Shown here piece after piece: positions 102-7,681 of a DNA stretch of 32,586 nt (positions are counted from its first letter, which is position 1; every line of letters starts with the position of its first letter). Below the pieces are notes generated by a model. The model made no database searches and was not told the DNA's origin. It saw only the letters and a list, made by a program, of their open reading frames with translations. Source of the DNA: Halanaerobiaceae bacterium (GTDB lineage Bacteria; Bacillota; Halanaerobiia; Halanaerobiales; Halarsenatibacteraceae); NCBI GenBank assembly GCA_007134885.1, contig SLJX01000068.1:1-32586 (forward strand). Direction: 5' to 3'. The translations under genes were made by a program, and so were the position numbers.

Positions 102-130
102 TTGAAATTATTTATTTTATTGTTTATAAT
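102..130 (+). promoter_or_regulatory. Sigma-A-type promoter for the small ORF and ABC exporter
   Basis: A -35 box TTGAAA at 102-107 and a perfect -10 box TATAAT at 125-130 are separated by exactly 17 nt in AT-rich DNA. It lies about 100 nt upstream of the small ORF at 239. A weaker second possibility, TTGCAA (49-54) with TATAAC (73-78) and an 18-nt spacer, lies just upstream. No other convincing promoter was found before the ABC genes, so transcription of those genes probably starts here. Confidence 0.7.
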
Positions 131-238
131 ATGTTTATGTTTAAAATGATATTTAAATATTTTGCTGTAATTCTTTAACTGGTTAAAGCAAATAACAGCA
201 AAGAAAAAATAAAGTTTAAAGAAAGGAGGGACGCTGGA

Positions 239-454
239 ATGATTTTCTATCAGGAGTTAGGGATGAGAGATATTAATATAAAAATTGACAGACTGCTTGA
301 TCTATTATTTATACCCATAGCGGTCCTAACTCTTACCCCAGGAATAATTATGCCTGATGATAGTATGCCTGAAGTTAATGTATTTGAATTCACAAGCTCT
401 GATAGTTTATCATATGCAGCGGCCCTCGGAGATAATATAATTTTGAGTGCCTGA
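239..454 (+). CDS. Small ORF, 71 aa, possible leader peptide or exported peptide
   Basis: I do not recognise this protein. The ATG at 239 has an excellent Shine-Dalgarno site (AGGAGGG at 224-230, 8-nt spacer). A second in-frame ATG at 263 has its own site (AGGAG at 252-256, 6-nt spacer), so two products of 71 and 63 residues are possible. The middle has a hydrophobic stretch (about residues 19-38, LLDLLFIPIAVLTLTPGI) and the C-terminal half is acidic and polar with no cysteine. It has its own consensus promoter and is followed by an intrinsic terminator. It lies directly upstream of a heterodimeric ABC exporter, the position occupied by the bmrB leader ORF in Bacillus subtilis bmrBCD. Being a regulatory leader is inference; being the exported substrate is the alternative. 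Confidence 0.6.
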   Translation: MIFYQELGMRDINIKIDRLLDLLFIPIAVLTLTPGIIMPDDSMPEVNVFEFTSSDSLSYAAALGDNIILSA

Positions 455-503
455 TTGACTGCCCCCTCAGCAAGTTCAATCGGCGTCTCAAATATATTAT
501 ACT

Positions 504-532
504 AAACTGCGGGTTGCTCCCGCAGTTTTTTT
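504..532 (+). terminator. Intrinsic terminator after the small ORF
   Basis: A perfect 10-bp stem (AAACTGCGGG at 504-513 with CCCGCAGTTT at 519-528) closes a 5-nt loop and runs straight into a T tract. It lies 50 nt past the small ORF stop and upstream of the ABC genes. With no clear promoter between it and 644, readthrough would control exporter expression. Confidence 0.9.
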
Positions 533-589
533 AGTAAGCTTATTATATCCTGTCTGCAAACAGACTGGCGATGAGCTTATTCTGATGAC

Positions 590-618
590 AAGGCCGCGGG
601 AATTTTGCGGCCTTTTTT
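590..618 (+). terminator. Second intrinsic terminator just before the ABC exporter
   Basis: The stem AAGGCCGC (590-597) pairs with GCGGCCTT (607-614) around a 9-nt loop and is followed by a T run to 618. It ends only 25 nt before the ATG at 644. Its GCGGG at 596-600 could instead pair with CCCGC (519-523) in the first terminator, so mutually exclusive folds are conceivable. Confidence 0.8.
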
Positions 619-643
619 ATTTTGCCTGAAAGTGGTGAAAAAC

Positions 644-2431
644 ATGAATACAATTATGACAGCCTTTAATTACATGAAAACAATGAAACTAAAATATCTG
701 GCAGCGGTTCTAGCAGTAGGAATTTCCACTATATTTTTGCTGCTGGTTCCCCTGGTAATTAGGATAACAATAGATTCTGTTATCGGCACTGAACCATTAA
801 ACCTGCCAGGTCTGGCAGAAGGGTTTTCCCAGCTGACCGGAGGTAGAGAATACTGGATTACCAGCCTCTGGCTGCCGGCCCTTTTGATAATTATTTTAAC
901 TCTGTTTCGGGGATTATTCCTTTACTGGAAGGGCAGATGGGCAGCTGAAGCAGCCGAAGAGATGGCCCGCAATTTACGGGATGAGCTCTTTCAGCATCTG
1001 CAGTATTTAAGTTTTTCCTATCATGTTAACAAAGATACCGGTGATCTGATTCAGCGCTGTACCTCTGACCTGGAAACTGTGCGGCGATTTTTTGCCGTTC
1101 AGCTGGTGGAGGTTGGCAGGGCGATATTTATGCTGGGAATTATTGCCGGGATCATGTTTTATCTGGATCCTTTTATGACTGGGATTTCTCTGCTGGTGGT
1201 ACCGGTTATCTTTCTCTTTTCCTATATCTTCTTTCACCGGGTCAGGGTGGCCTTTCGGGCTGCTGATGAAGCCGAGGCTGAACTTTCCACGTTTTTACAG
1301 GAGAACCTGACAGGTGTCAGGGTAGTTAAGGCTTTTGCCCGTCAACCGGAGGAGGTTAAAACCTTCATTGCTAAAAACTGCCGCCACAGAGATCTCACCT
1401 TTAGATTAATCAGGCTGCTGGCCTATTTTTGGTCCTTTTCGGATTTTATCTGCTTTCTGCAGATCGGACTGGTTTTGTTGGTAGGTACTCAGCGGGCTGC
1501 CGCCGGTCAGCTTACCCTCGGAACCCTGGTGGTTTTCGTAACCTATGAAGGAATGCTGCTCTGGCCAGTTCGGCAGGCCGGCAGGATTTTAACCGATCTG
1601 GGCAAATCCCAGGTGGCTGTTGAAAGGATGCAGCAGATCCTCAATGAACCCCGGGAAGATTTCAGACAGCTGGGGCTTCAGAAACAGATACGGGGAAGAA
1701 TTGAAGTTCGCAATCTCAGCTTTAACTACCAGCCCGGTGAACCGGTTCTGGAGAATATTTCCTTTACCGTTCAGCCGGGAGAAACTCTGGGGATTCTCGG
1801 TTCCACCGGTTCTGGCAAGAGCACCCTGACCTATCTGCTGACCCGACTCTATGACTATCAGCAGGGTTCAATTAAAATAGATGGTCGGGAGCTAAAGGAG
1901 TATGATCGGGGCTGGATCAGACAGCAGATTGGTTTGATTCTTCAGGAACCCTATCTCTTTGCCCGTAGTATCAAAGATAATATTGCTCTGGCCGCCCCGG
2001 AGGTTGAGTCCTCTGAGCTGGAGAGAGCAGCTGAAATTGCAGCTGTCCATGAAGTAGTCTCTGAATTTGATAGGGGTTATCTGACTGAAGTGGGGGAACG
2101 AGGAGTCTCCCTCTCCGGGGGTCAGAAACAGAGGCTGTCCATTGCCAGAACTCTGGTAAGAAACTGCCCGGTAATGATCTTTGATGATTCTCTCAGTGCC
2201 GTCGATACCAAAACCGATCTCAGAATCAGACAGGCACTTAAAAATAATTATGCTGATCTGACAAAAATAATAATTTCTCACCGTATCAGCACTCTGGCTT
2301 CTTCGGATCAGATTCTGGTGCTGGAACAGGGGAAAATTGTTCAGCTGGGGACTCATCAGGAGCTTATTAAGGAACCGGGTATCTACCGCCGGACCTGGCA
2401 GCTGCAGAATGAAGAAGAGATAGTAAGTTAA
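644..2431 (+). CDS. Heterodimeric ABC exporter, subunit with the degenerate ATP site
   Basis: This is an ABC half-exporter of 595 aa: an N-terminal transmembrane domain (about residues 1-330) and a C-terminal nucleotide-binding domain. Walker A GSTGSGKST is at 386-394, the signature LSGGQ at 490-494, Walker B VMIFD at 510-514 and the H-loop His at 546. The residue after Walker B is Asp515 (IFDDSLSAVDT) rather than the catalytic Glu, as known for the BmrC/TM287 class. Its partner follows 16 nt downstream. ATG 644 was chosen over an upstream TTG at 605, which lies inside the terminator; AGTGGTG precedes the ATG. The substrate is probably a drug, lipid or peptide, but specificity cannot be read from sequence. 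Expression probably depends on readthrough of two upstream terminators. Confidence 0.93.
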   Translation: MNTIMTAFNYMKTMKLKYLAAVLAVGISTIFLLLVPLVIRITIDSVIGTEPLNLPGLAEGFSQLTGGREYWITSLWLPALLIIILTLFRGLFLYWKGRWAAEAAEEMARNLRDELFQHLQYLSFSYHVNKDTGDLIQRCTSDLETVRRFFAVQLVEVGRAIFMLGIIAGIMFYLDPFMTGISLLVVPVIFLFSYIFFHRVRVAFRAADEAEAELSTFLQENLTGVRVVKAFARQPEEVKTFIAKNCRHRDLTFRLIRLLAYFWSFSDFICFLQIGLVLLVGTQRAAAGQLTLGTLVVFVTYEGMLLWPVRQAGRILTDLGKSQVAVERMQQILNEPREDFRQLGLQKQIRGRIEVRNLSFNYQPGEPVLENISFTVQPGETLGILGSTGSGKSTLTYLLTRLYDYQQGSIKIDGRELKEYDRGWIRQQIGLILQEPYLFARSIKDNIALAAPEVESSELERAAEIAAVHEVVSEFDRGYLTEVGERGVSLSGGQKQRLSIARTLVRNCPVMIFDDSLSAVDTKTDLRIRQALKNNYADLTKIIISHRISTLASSDQILVLEQGKIVQLGTHQELIKEPGIYRRTWQLQNEEEIVS

Positions 2432-2447
2432 GATAGGAGTGATCAGG

Positions 2448-4286
2448 ATGCAAACCATGCAGGAAGAAACCTATAACAAAAAAATCAATCTAGATCTCTG
2501 GAAGGAGATCATAAAATACAGCCTACCCAATAAAAAAATATTACTGGGACTGGCAGCGGTCATGCTGCTGGTAGCCGGAGTGGATGCCGTGCTGCCGCTC
2601 ATGACACGCTATGCAATCGATAATTTTGTTGTCCCCAATCAACTGGAGGGATTCAGGGGTTTTGCTCTGGTGTATTTTCTAATTATTTCCCTGCAGGCTT
2701 TAAATATCTTTCTCTTTATTTATCTGGCCGGCAGGCTGGAGACAGATATTGCCTGTGATATCCGCCAGGCAGCCTTTGAGAAGCTTCAGCTGCTCCCGCT
2801 TGCCTACTATGATAAGAGACCGGTTGGCTGGTTGATGGCCCGGTTGACCTCCGATATCCACAGGTTGAGCAGTGTCATTTCCTGGGGAGTGGTTGATCTG
2901 GTCTGGGGCGGCAGCATGATGGTCACAATAATGGGGATAATGCTGATTTTAAATTTTCGCCTGGCTTTAATTACCCTGTCAGTGGTACCTCTCCTGATCC
3001 TGATCAGTCTTTACTTTCAGAAGAAAATTCTGGGAGAATTCAGGCTGGTCCGGAAGTTAAACTCCAGAATAACTGGAGCCTTTAATGAAAGCATCAGTGG
3101 AGCCCTAACCAGCAAAACCCTGGTGAGAGAAGAAGATAACTCCAGAGAGTTTGCTGATCTCACGGCAAGCATGAAAGCTTCTTCGGTTAGAGCTGCAATT
3201 TTTTCAGCTCTTTTTATGCCGCTGGTTCTCTCTTTGAGCAGTATAGGGACGGGTCTGGCTCTCTGGCGGGGAGGCTCGGCAGTTTTCCAGGGCCTTATAA
3301 CCTATGGCACACTGGTAGCTTTCGTTAACTACACCATTCAGTTTTTTGAGCCAGTGCGGGAGTTAGCCCGGATTTTTGCCGAACTGCAGTCAGCTCAGGC
3401 AGCCGGAGAGCGGGTATTATCTCTAATAGATACCAAACCGGAAATTACTGATACTGAAGAGGTTTCAGCCCGGTTCGGCACTATTTTACAGCCCGACCGC
3501 ACAAACTGGCCTGGTTTTAAGGGACGGGTGCAGTTTCGGGGGATTGATTTCTCCTATCAGACTGAGGAGCCGATCTTGGAAAACTTTAATCTCGAGGTAG
3601 ACCCCGGAGAAAAAATTGCCCTGGTTGGAGAAACCGGTTCCGGCAAAAGCACAATAGTAAATCTGCTCTGCCGATTTTATGAGCCGGTTTCCGGGCAAAT
3701 TTTGCTGGATGGCATTGACTACCGCTGTCGTTCCCAGAGCTGGCTGCAGTCCCATCTCGGCTATGTCCTTCAGGACCCTCATCTATTTAGCGGTACCATA
3801 GCTGATAATATCAGGTTTGCCAGACCTTCAGCCTCTGAAGCACAGATAAAAAAAGCGGCCCGGCTGGTTCAGGCTGACAGCTTTATTGTCAGACTCCCCC
3901 GGGGTTATCAGACAGAGGTGGGCGAAGGCGGCGATCTGCTCTCCACCGGGCAGAAGCAGCTTATTTCATTTGCCCGGGCAATTTTAAATGACCCGGTTCT
4001 TTTTGTTCTCGATGAAGCTACCTCATCAATTGATACCGAGATGGAAATTATAATACAAAAAGCAGTAGATCAGGTTCTGGCCGGGAGGACCAGTTTCATC
4101 ATAGCCCATAGATTATCTACGATTAAGCATGCCGATCGAATCCTGGTATTATCCGGGGGAAAGATTAGAGAAATTGGCAGTCATTTGGAGCTGTTAGAAC
4201 GGAAAGGATATTATTATGAGCTGTATCAGAATCAGTTTGTCGGTAGGAATTTTGAGGAAAATCTTAAATTTAAAGTTGGCAGTTAG
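2448..4286 (+). CDS. Heterodimeric ABC exporter, subunit with the canonical ATP site
   Basis: This 612-aa half-exporter has a transmembrane domain and a C-terminal ATPase: Walker A GETGSGKST at 394-402, signature LSTGQ at 498-502, Walker B ending Asp522 with the canonical catalytic Glu523 (LDEATSSIDTE), and H-loop His554. The signature departs from LSGGQ and would contribute to the partner's degenerate site, while the partner's intact LSGGQ would complete this subunit's catalytic site. This matches the established asymmetry of heterodimers such as BmrCD and TM287/288. A GTG at 2439 is in frame, but ATG 2448 is preferred because AGGAG (2435-2439) lies 8 nt before it. The short linker between Walker B and D-loop is ordinary. 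Confidence 0.93.
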   Translation: MQTMQEETYNKKINLDLWKEIIKYSLPNKKILLGLAAVMLLVAGVDAVLPLMTRYAIDNFVVPNQLEGFRGFALVYFLIISLQALNIFLFIYLAGRLETDIACDIRQAAFEKLQLLPLAYYDKRPVGWLMARLTSDIHRLSSVISWGVVDLVWGGSMMVTIMGIMLILNFRLALITLSVVPLLILISLYFQKKILGEFRLVRKLNSRITGAFNESISGALTSKTLVREEDNSREFADLTASMKASSVRAAIFSALFMPLVLSLSSIGTGLALWRGGSAVFQGLITYGTLVAFVNYTIQFFEPVRELARIFAELQSAQAAGERVLSLIDTKPEITDTEEVSARFGTILQPDRTNWPGFKGRVQFRGIDFSYQTEEPILENFNLEVDPGEKIALVGETGSGKSTIVNLLCRFYEPVSGQILLDGIDYRCRSQSWLQSHLGYVLQDPHLFSGTIADNIRFARPSASEAQIKKAARLVQADSFIVRLPRGYQTEVGEGGDLLSTGQKQLISFARAILNDPVLFVLDEATSSIDTEMEIIIQKAVDQVLAGRTSFIIAHRLSTIKHADRILVLSGGKIREIGSHLELLERKGYYYELYQNQFVGRNFEENLKFKVGS

Positions 4287-4604: not shown

Positions 4605-4802
4605 ATGCCGGAGTGTTCTGAAATGGAGAATAACCTTGATTATTGCAGCTGCACCTATGAACCCTGTCCTCGCAAGGGTAACTGCTGTGCCTGTATTCAA
4701 TACCATAATAATAAAGGAGAAGTTCCGGGCTGTCTTTTTGATGAAAAGGCAGAAAAAACCTATAATAGATCCCGGAAATACTTTCTGCAGACTCAAAGTT
4801 AA
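4605..4802 (+). CDS. Cys-rich DUF6485-type small protein, 65 aa
   Basis: The product contains eight cysteines; seven lie in a block at about residues 14-43 arranged as CSC-x4-C-x4-CCAC, plus one in PGCLF. The pattern 'CxCTYEPCxRKGxCCxCixYH' followed by 'PGCLF' is what I recall for the DUF6485 family of small anaerobe proteins; the function is unknown and metal (probably zinc or Fe-S) binding is inferred. ATG 4605 has a very strong GGGAGGTGGTGA upstream. It is followed 10 nt later by a strong terminator, so it is probably a single-gene unit with its own promoter, or the last gene of the exporter operon. Confidence 0.8.
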   Translation: MPECSEMENNLDYCSCTYEPCPRKGNCCACIQYHNNKGEVPGCLFDEKAEKTYNRSRKYFLQTQS

Positions 4803-4810
4803 CCGACTGG

Positions 4811-4845
4811 AAAAACCCCGGGAATTCCCGGGGTTTAATTTTTCT
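4811..4845. terminator. Bidirectional intrinsic terminator between convergent operons
   Basis: A perfect 10-bp GC-rich stem, AAACCCCGGG (4813-4822) with CCCGGGGTTT (4827-4836), closes an AATT loop. On the plus strand it is followed by TTTAATTTTT. On the minus strand the run of A's at 4811-4815 reads as TTTTT. It lies between the DUF6485 gene (plus) and the HAD gene (minus, ending 4890), so it can serve both. Confidence 0.9.
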
Positions 4846-7546: not shown

Positions 7547-7599
7547 CTGTTTAAAATTATGAGTCTTCGAGCCTTCAGTCCCGAAATTAATTGGTAAGC

Positions 7600-7673
7600 A
7601 GTCTGGACTGTCTGGCCGACAGGGCCGGCCGGGAAACCGCCGAGCCTCCCATTACTGGAAAGGAGACCAGATT
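7600..7673 (+). ncRNA. Probable molybdenum/tungsten cofactor riboswitch (MOCO RNA motif)
   Basis: The leader of the cofactor operon carries the segment GAAACCGCCGAGCCTCCC (7633-7650), then ATTACTGG and AGGAGACC (7661-7668). These match my recollection of the conserved core of the MOCO RNA motif. The ends close by pairing AGTCTGG (7600-7606) with CCAGATT (7667-7673), 7 bp including one wobble. Inside is a 5-bp hairpin CTGTC/GACAG (7608-7622). The downstream genes make the cofactor, as expected of a feedback riboswitch. Ligand (Mo versus W form) cannot be assigned by eye. Confidence 0.72.
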
Positions 7674-7681
7674 TTGCTTTC

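Follow-up and report, generated by a model that had tools for sequence, protein, structure and literature searches.

In Bacillus subtilis, the bmrB leader controls bmrCD through an anti-antiterminator, an antiterminator and a terminator, a logic that has been shown experimentally (Reilman et al. 2014, PMC4191407). Ribosome-targeting antibiotics induce the system, and mutation of the bmrB start codon abolishes the induction (PMC4191407). An earlier note on the 32,586-nt stretch of DNA analysed here (the window), which belongs to a 2.3-Mb genome assembly of a Halanaerobiaceae bacterium, had suggested that a small ORF and two terminators ahead of an ABC exporter form an attenuation layout like that of bmrB. 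The layout proved to be conserved, with covarying alternative pairings and poorly conserved amino acids in the ORF; however, the key switch strand was found to be 417–429 and not the one that had been named. On comparative and folding evidence, we consider it probable that the exporter operon is controlled by this leader, acting as a transcription attenuator that senses ribosomes.

Organization of the leader and the exporter operon

All the features listed previously, namely the promoter, the ORF, the terminators T1 and T2 and an exporter gene pair beginning at 644, are present in the window (Table 1). The near-consensus promoter is 97% identical in the congeners G003 and G002. T1 begins 49 nt past the ORF stop codon, and its 10-bp stem (-16 kcal/mol) is 100% conserved in three congeners; T2, which is 90–97% conserved among congeners, ends 29 nt before the exporter ATG. 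The absence of an internal promoter was borne out by a consensus scan, which found no sigma-70-type site with at least 9 of 12 matches on the + strand at 454–620. The sole nearby site of this type (626–654) overlaps the exporter start codon, and since the end of T2 is so close to the ATG, there is no room for a further promoter after T2.

Table 1. Features of the leader and the exporter operon (positions in the window).
Feature	Position	Strand	Basis or remark
Sigma-70-type promoter, TTGAAA-17-TATAAT	102–130	+	consensus scan, 11/12 matches
seg1 (GAGGGaCGCUG), leader ORF Shine-Dalgarno region	226–236	+	pairs with 417–427
Leader ORF, 71 codons	239–454	+	preceded by AAAGGAGGG; also present in G003 and G002
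seg2, switch segment in the ORF end, CAGCGGCCCUCGG	417–429	+	pairs with seg1 or seg3
Hairpin H1, across the ORF stop codon	442–492	+	-20 kcal/mol, z -4.4
Terminator T1 (seg3 507–518, seg4 518–529)	504–532	+	stem 504–528, U-tract to 532
Hairpin H3 between T1 and T2	534–580	+	in the loop of the 4:5 pairing
Terminator T2 (seg5 590–601, seg6 607–614)	590–618	+	stem 590–614, U-tract to 618
Exporter subunit 1, ABC_membrane and ABC_tran, degenerate Walker B FDDSLSAVD	644–2431	+	Pfam
Exporter subunit 2, ABC_membrane and ABC_tran, canonical DEATSSID, divergent signature LSTGQ	2448–4286	+	Pfam, sequence

The folding energy of RNA 440–645 was 6 sd below dinucleotide shuffles, and that of RNA 137–645 was 8 sd below them. 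The minimum free energy structure of the whole leader already includes the seg1:seg2 pairing. A riboswitch or other known RNA was considered and rejected: in Rfam searches at the gathering score and with E<=10, nothing in the leader matched beyond chance level, and at the gathering score neither the window leader nor those of 16 related loci hit any family.

A degenerate and a canonical half-transporter together form the usual asymmetric heterodimer, and the FDDSLSAVD motif of subunit 1 is invariant in 16 orthologs. There was no sign that BmrCD is the closest relative of the exporter: the matches of subunit 2 to PDB chain 6raf_A (1e-118) and to TM288 (3e-114) are better than its match to YheH/BmrD (1e-99), and subunit 1 is nearest to Sav1866 among bacterial half-transporters. 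Judged by its sequence, the exporter is of the general heterodimeric multidrug type.

Several other elements were observed in and around the operon. The 5' UTR of the leader contains a palindrome, CTTTAACTGGTTAAAG, at 173–188, nested in TTTGCTGT...ACAGCAAA; it is a possible operator, and its outer part is missing in G002. In several relatives, a gene for a Fur/PerR-family regulator ends directly upstream of the leader promoter (989–1471 in locus L052, and likewise ahead of the G002 and G005 leaders), and this regulator may control the promoter. The window contig starts where relatives carry that gene. Downstream of the exporter lies a 65-aa Cys-rich ORF (DUF6485, 4605–4802, +), which is followed by a strong terminator-like site (4813–4836). 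Further on, a Moco (molybdenum-cofactor) riboswitch (7553–7681, +, 50.3 bits) precedes an apparent molybdopterin gene cluster at about 7.8–16 kb.

Leaders in related genomes

Recognisable DNA similarity to the leader was limited to the two congeners G003 and G002. Orthologs of subunit 1 were found in 19 genomes of the class, the window genome included, with 52–93% identity. The search of relatives for a small ORF with terminators before the exporter pair, proposed in the earlier note, succeeded in 18 of these 19: a promoter, a strong Shine-Dalgarno sequence, a short ORF (28–71 aa), T1 and T2 follow one another in the same order. The G054 ortholog has no leader within 600 nt, and the leader of G006 is located about 0.6 kb further upstream of the exporter. 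In several orthologs, at least 100 nt separate the last terminator from the exporter, where a separate promoter could fit.

A wider collection yielded 80 named loci, ten of which were inspected in detail. Five of the ten have the tandem-terminator form (L074 and L075 from Fervidicella, L077 from Soehngenia, L081 from Tissierellia and L089 from Clostridium tetanomorphum), and the remaining five, L086, L092, L093, L110 and L114, have a single terminator. L151 repeats L077.

We also performed a predictive scan of 59 class genomes with a pattern of seg1 and seg2, GGTCGTG...CACGRCCT. A reversed-pattern control gave a background of about the same order as the pattern matches, and matches were accepted only with a start codon, terminators and a 2:3 match. 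The pattern recovered seven known leaders and three unseen ones with a start codon and a terminator (G006, G029:C81 and G013); in the latter three, the 5' arm of T1, which the pattern does not use, matches seg2 (p 0.001–0.003). In a wider sample of the phylum, the same pattern gave no further convincing leader of that sequence type.

Two of the new leaders stand before other genes. In G029:C81 (L166), a second copy of the leader, comprising the ORF, T1 and T2, precedes a gene for a GNAT-type acetyltransferase, which has weak NCBIfam matches only and is a candidate for a resistance gene under shared control. The leader of this type in G013:C19 (L160) has one terminator and is situated about 0.4 kb upstream of a gene for an ABC solute-binding protein; the G013 genome has no close exporter ortholog at the cut-off used.

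Alternative pairings of the switch segment

Both the Shine-Dalgarno region (seg1) and the 5' arm of T1 (seg3) are complementary to one segment near the end of the ORF (seg2), and these complementarities would provide a terminator, an antiterminator and an anti-antiterminator. In the window leader, the 1:2 duplex (226–236 with 417–427, CAGCGGCCCUC) comprises 10 bp and one A.G mismatch. The 2:3 duplex, in which the partner of seg2 is the 5' arm and loop of T1, runs from A418-U518 to C425-G511 and then from C427-G509 to G429-C507. Hairpin H1 sits in the loop of this pairing, and a similar fold is found in G002 despite changes. The comparison supports the pairing of the ORF 3' end (417–429) with the T1 5' arm as the putative primary antiterminator.

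The letters of the three strands differ between lineages. In most other families, seg2 is ACACGACCUGUG, which encodes TRPV, its Shine-Dalgarno partner is AGGUCGUGU and its T1 partner is CACAGGUNGUGU. Written as strand triplets, the segments are AGGUCGUGU/ACACGACCU/AGGUNGUGU in most families, GAGGGACGC/GCGGCCCUC/GCGGGUUGC in the window leader, GGUCGUAAA/UUUAUGACC/GGUUAUAAA in G058, GGUUGUACA/UGUACAACC/AGGUGUACA in Fervidicella and GGCUGCAAA/UUUGCGGCC/GGCUGCAAA in L092. In lineages where all three strands have changed, the strands still match one another.

The significance of these matches was assessed with ORFs and terminators that had been picked without reference to the pairings tested. In a joint test against dinucleotide shuffles of the ORF, which required a summed duplex energy as low as that observed and overlapping ORF segments, the window leader gave p = 0.0013. 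Among 27 curated leaders, one ORF segment was targeted by both duplexes in 26, and p <= 0.01 was reached in 25. The poor fits to the switch design were L114, which fails the joint test (p 0.15), and L110, whose duplexes do not overlap. Fisher's combination gave p of about 6e-13 with one leader for each of eight sequence types and about 9e-11 with the worst member of each type, values that serve as guides only, the loci being related. Permutation of partners among the 27 loci yielded z -7.6 for 1:2 and z -8.3 for 2:3; when swaps were made between sequence types, the distinct types agreed, and the common type was confounded. A cruder statistic, the number of paired bases in ungapped 9-mers, gave p 0.28 for the window leader and an overall Fisher p of 0.0045; with its unweighted pairs it is saturated and weak, and the energy-based test was preferred. 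What the comparison demonstrates is the elements, their alternative complementarity and the conservation of that complementarity.

The second terminator

The earlier note had pointed to an alternative pairing of CCCGC (519–523) with GCGGG (596–600). Both motifs are present and able to pair, and they form the core of a longer complementarity between seg4 (518–529), the 3' arm of T1, and seg5 (590–601), the 5' arm of T2. As the main switch this pairing was rejected: it cannot stop T1, for the T2 arm is transcribed after T1 is complete. At most, the proposed pair would serve as a follow-up step directed at T2.

Such a relay, in which 4:5 would break T2, is plausible and draws support from comparison. 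Mere similarity of T1 and T2 would make the mirror pairing 3:6 equally good, and it was therefore used as a control: 4:5 is stronger than 3:6 in 19 of 22 loci (mean -15.1 vs -11.9 kcal/mol, Wilcoxon p 0.0008). Partner permutation gave z -5.5 for 4:5, and the signal survives permutation within one stem type (z -3.7). The switch segment itself prefers T1, with 2:3 beating 2:5 in 22/22 loci. Given 2:3, P(4:5) is at least 0.8 in 19 of 22 loci before the 3' arm of T2 has been made. Hairpin H3, located in the 4:5 loop, is just 56% identical to its counterpart in G002, its stem being kept through paired changes (z -4.5, -3.1 and -4.2 in three congeners).

A variant of the proposed mechanism, which shares part of our confidence in it, retains the T1 attenuator as described and regards T2 as a mere back-up of similar sequence, with no relay. 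The complementarity of seg4 and seg5 follows in part from the similarity of the stems, the five Clostridia leaders with one terminator do without a second, and in L089 the T2 shares no stem with T1. Moreover, once the 3' arm of T2 has been made, T2 is favoured over 4:5 at equilibrium in most loci. The excess of 4:5 over the mirror pairing and its persistence within one stem type stand against this variant, which we regard as a serious possibility while leaning towards the relay.

The leader ORF and its peptide

The well-initiated ORF described earlier is retained in both congeners, with amino acid identities of 89% and 63%. Its pN/pS is 0.37–0.63, compared with 0.10–0.12 for the exporter (4–6 times higher; G003 and G002). 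Between the window genome and G002, the ORF body is 75% identical, T1 100% and T2 94%. A one-base deletion inside seg2 in G002 alters the reading frame and the stop codon, and the RNA beyond it stays conserved. This congener comparison indicates that the ORF is kept open and that the RNA pairing matters, whereas the peptide matters little. At the orthologous loci, the peptides (21 to 71 aa) share almost no sequence, and the stretch that they conserve best (TRPV or ARPV in other families) falls on the RNA pairing segment.

These data bear on the possibility that an ordinary small gene is present here, for instance one for a peptide secreted by the exporter, whose transcript ends at T1 and T2, the exporter being expressed from its own promoter or by leaky readthrough. 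The ORF does look translated, is weakly conserved in the genus and has a hydrophobic middle. However, the divergence of the peptides, the elevated pN/pS and the tracking of RNA pairing by the conserved part are at odds with such a gene, as are the promoter-free 454–620 region and the position of T2 so near the exporter ATG; we find this explanation unlikely. The exported-substrate role that the earlier note had offered as its alternative appears disfavoured on the same grounds.

The second codon specifies Ile in 18 of 30 leaders (27 curated and three de novo), the peptides being otherwise unrelated. The start-proximal uORF of vmlR reads MIN (PMC9226507), and the resemblance is a lead only.

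Ribosome position and the proposed mechanism

The nascent transcript of the window leader was folded with a 33-nt ribosome footprint excluded. When the ribosome was absent or placed on codons 12–40, P(1:2) was 0.99 and T1 followed. With the P-site on codons 1, 3 and 5, P(2:3) reached 0.97, 0.97 and 0.92 once seg3 had emerged, and 0.95, 0.88 and 0.00 five bases later. A ribosome on codons 58–65 covered seg2, no 2:3 was formed and T1 appeared. The model thus predicts antitermination only with a ribosome on about the first five codons. Across the 27 loci, a ribosome on the start codon gave P(2:3) >= 0.8 in 22, and one on seg2 gave zero. The leader is accordingly modelled as a predicted sensor for ribosomes held at or just past initiation.

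At equilibrium, with seg1 covered and T1 complete, T1 prevailed (P 0.86 vs 0.07 for 2:3), and 2:3 with 5:6 was favoured over 2:3 with 4:5 by about 2–5 kcal/mol. Because T1 wins at equilibrium even with seg1 covered, we infer that the ON state must be kinetic. Kinetic antitermination is usual for attenuators.

The leader has a translatable ORF with a ribosome-binding site between promoter and terminator, and comparison and folding indicate a mutually exclusive terminator and antiterminator between which ribosome position decides. In the OFF state of the proposed attenuator, seg1 would pair with seg2, or a ribosome translating the ORF end would cover seg2; T1 (3:4) and then T2 (5:6) would form, and transcription would stop. 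In the ON state, a ribosome kept on the opening codons would cover seg1 and leave seg2 free to take the 5' arm of T1 (2:3) before T1 can form. The released 3' arm of T1 (seg4) would in turn take the 5' arm of T2 (4:5). With 2:3 and then 4:5 in place, both terminators would fail and the exporter would be transcribed. Most likely, we infer, the switch is induced by an inhibitor under which ribosomes stall on the start codon or immediately past it.

The alternative pairings do not by themselves identify the sensor, and the same switch might be read by a protein or a small ligand able to expose or mask seg2, with translation of the ORF incidental; however, in every case seg1 is the Shine-Dalgarno region of an ORF and seg2 is found near the end of the same ORF, a placement that makes sense only if ribosomes act on both, and no ligand-binding domain or Rfam match was found, so that we judge such a sensor improbable, even more so than the small gene.

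Returning to the ribosome-sensing attenuator, we tentatively extend it, with confidence just short of even, to a six-strand relay: a ribosome at the start codon would free the strand complementary to the Shine-Dalgarno sequence, T1 would be disarmed and its freed arm would disarm T2. Such leaders might represent a widespread, undescribed class of RNA in Halanaerobiales-type bacteria and Clostridia, in control of multidrug exporters and of one or more further candidate resistance genes.

Comparison with known leaders

The window leader is best filed with ribosome-mediated attenuation of the bmrB/vmlR type. Its sequence is not obviously related to bmrB, which was compared by its published description. 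Like bmrB, it combines a small translated ORF, a terminator, an antiterminator and a predicted anti-antiterminator with a heterodimeric multidrug ABC exporter (PMC4191407); in both, the anti-antiterminator overlaps the antiterminator, which in the window leader is due to the sharing of seg2 by 1:2 and 2:3. The two systems differ in that bmrB has a single terminator inside the coding region, whereas the window leader has two past the stop codon, neither lying within the leader coding sequence. In addition, all three bmrB structures lie in nt 60–162, away from the Shine-Dalgarno sequence (PMC4191407), whereas the anti-antiterminator strand of the window leader is the Shine-Dalgarno region itself.

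In the vmlR leader of B. subtilis, as proposed here, a ribosome stalled at the start of a uORF blocks the anti-antiterminator, the antiterminator forms and an intrinsic terminator fails; vmlR differs in its three-codon uORF, single terminator, added translation attenuation and ABC-F gene in place of an exporter (PMC9226507). The toiL uORF of Escherichia coli is similar as a multipurpose sensor of several ribosome-targeting antibiotics, with tetracycline stalling at the start codon, but it controls translation and Rho-dependent termination and not tandem intrinsic terminators (PMC12121999). The rimP-leader of Gammaproteobacteria shares tandem terminators, with CCCG...CGGG motifs of inverse order in some species; it precedes another gene, and the parts of that report available to us do not describe a leader ORF or relay (Naville and Gautheret 2010, PMC2965389). 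A literature search, whose coverage left out most subscription journals, found no description of a leader such as this one.

The design is conserved from the class of the window genome to Clostridia while letters and peptide change. Since both keep changing, it is the pairing and not the sequence that defines the design, which would explain why sequence-based catalogues miss such leaders. With the Shine-Dalgarno strand serving as anti-antiterminator, the predicted sensor is one for ribosomes arrested during initiation or on the earliest codons, and the pair of terminators hints at tighter control, a single event lifting both stops. Compared with bmrB, vmlR and toiL, the leader differs in its Shine-Dalgarno anti-antiterminator, its terminators past the stop codon, its tandem T2 with a coevolved 4:5 pairing and its seemingly unrelated sequence.
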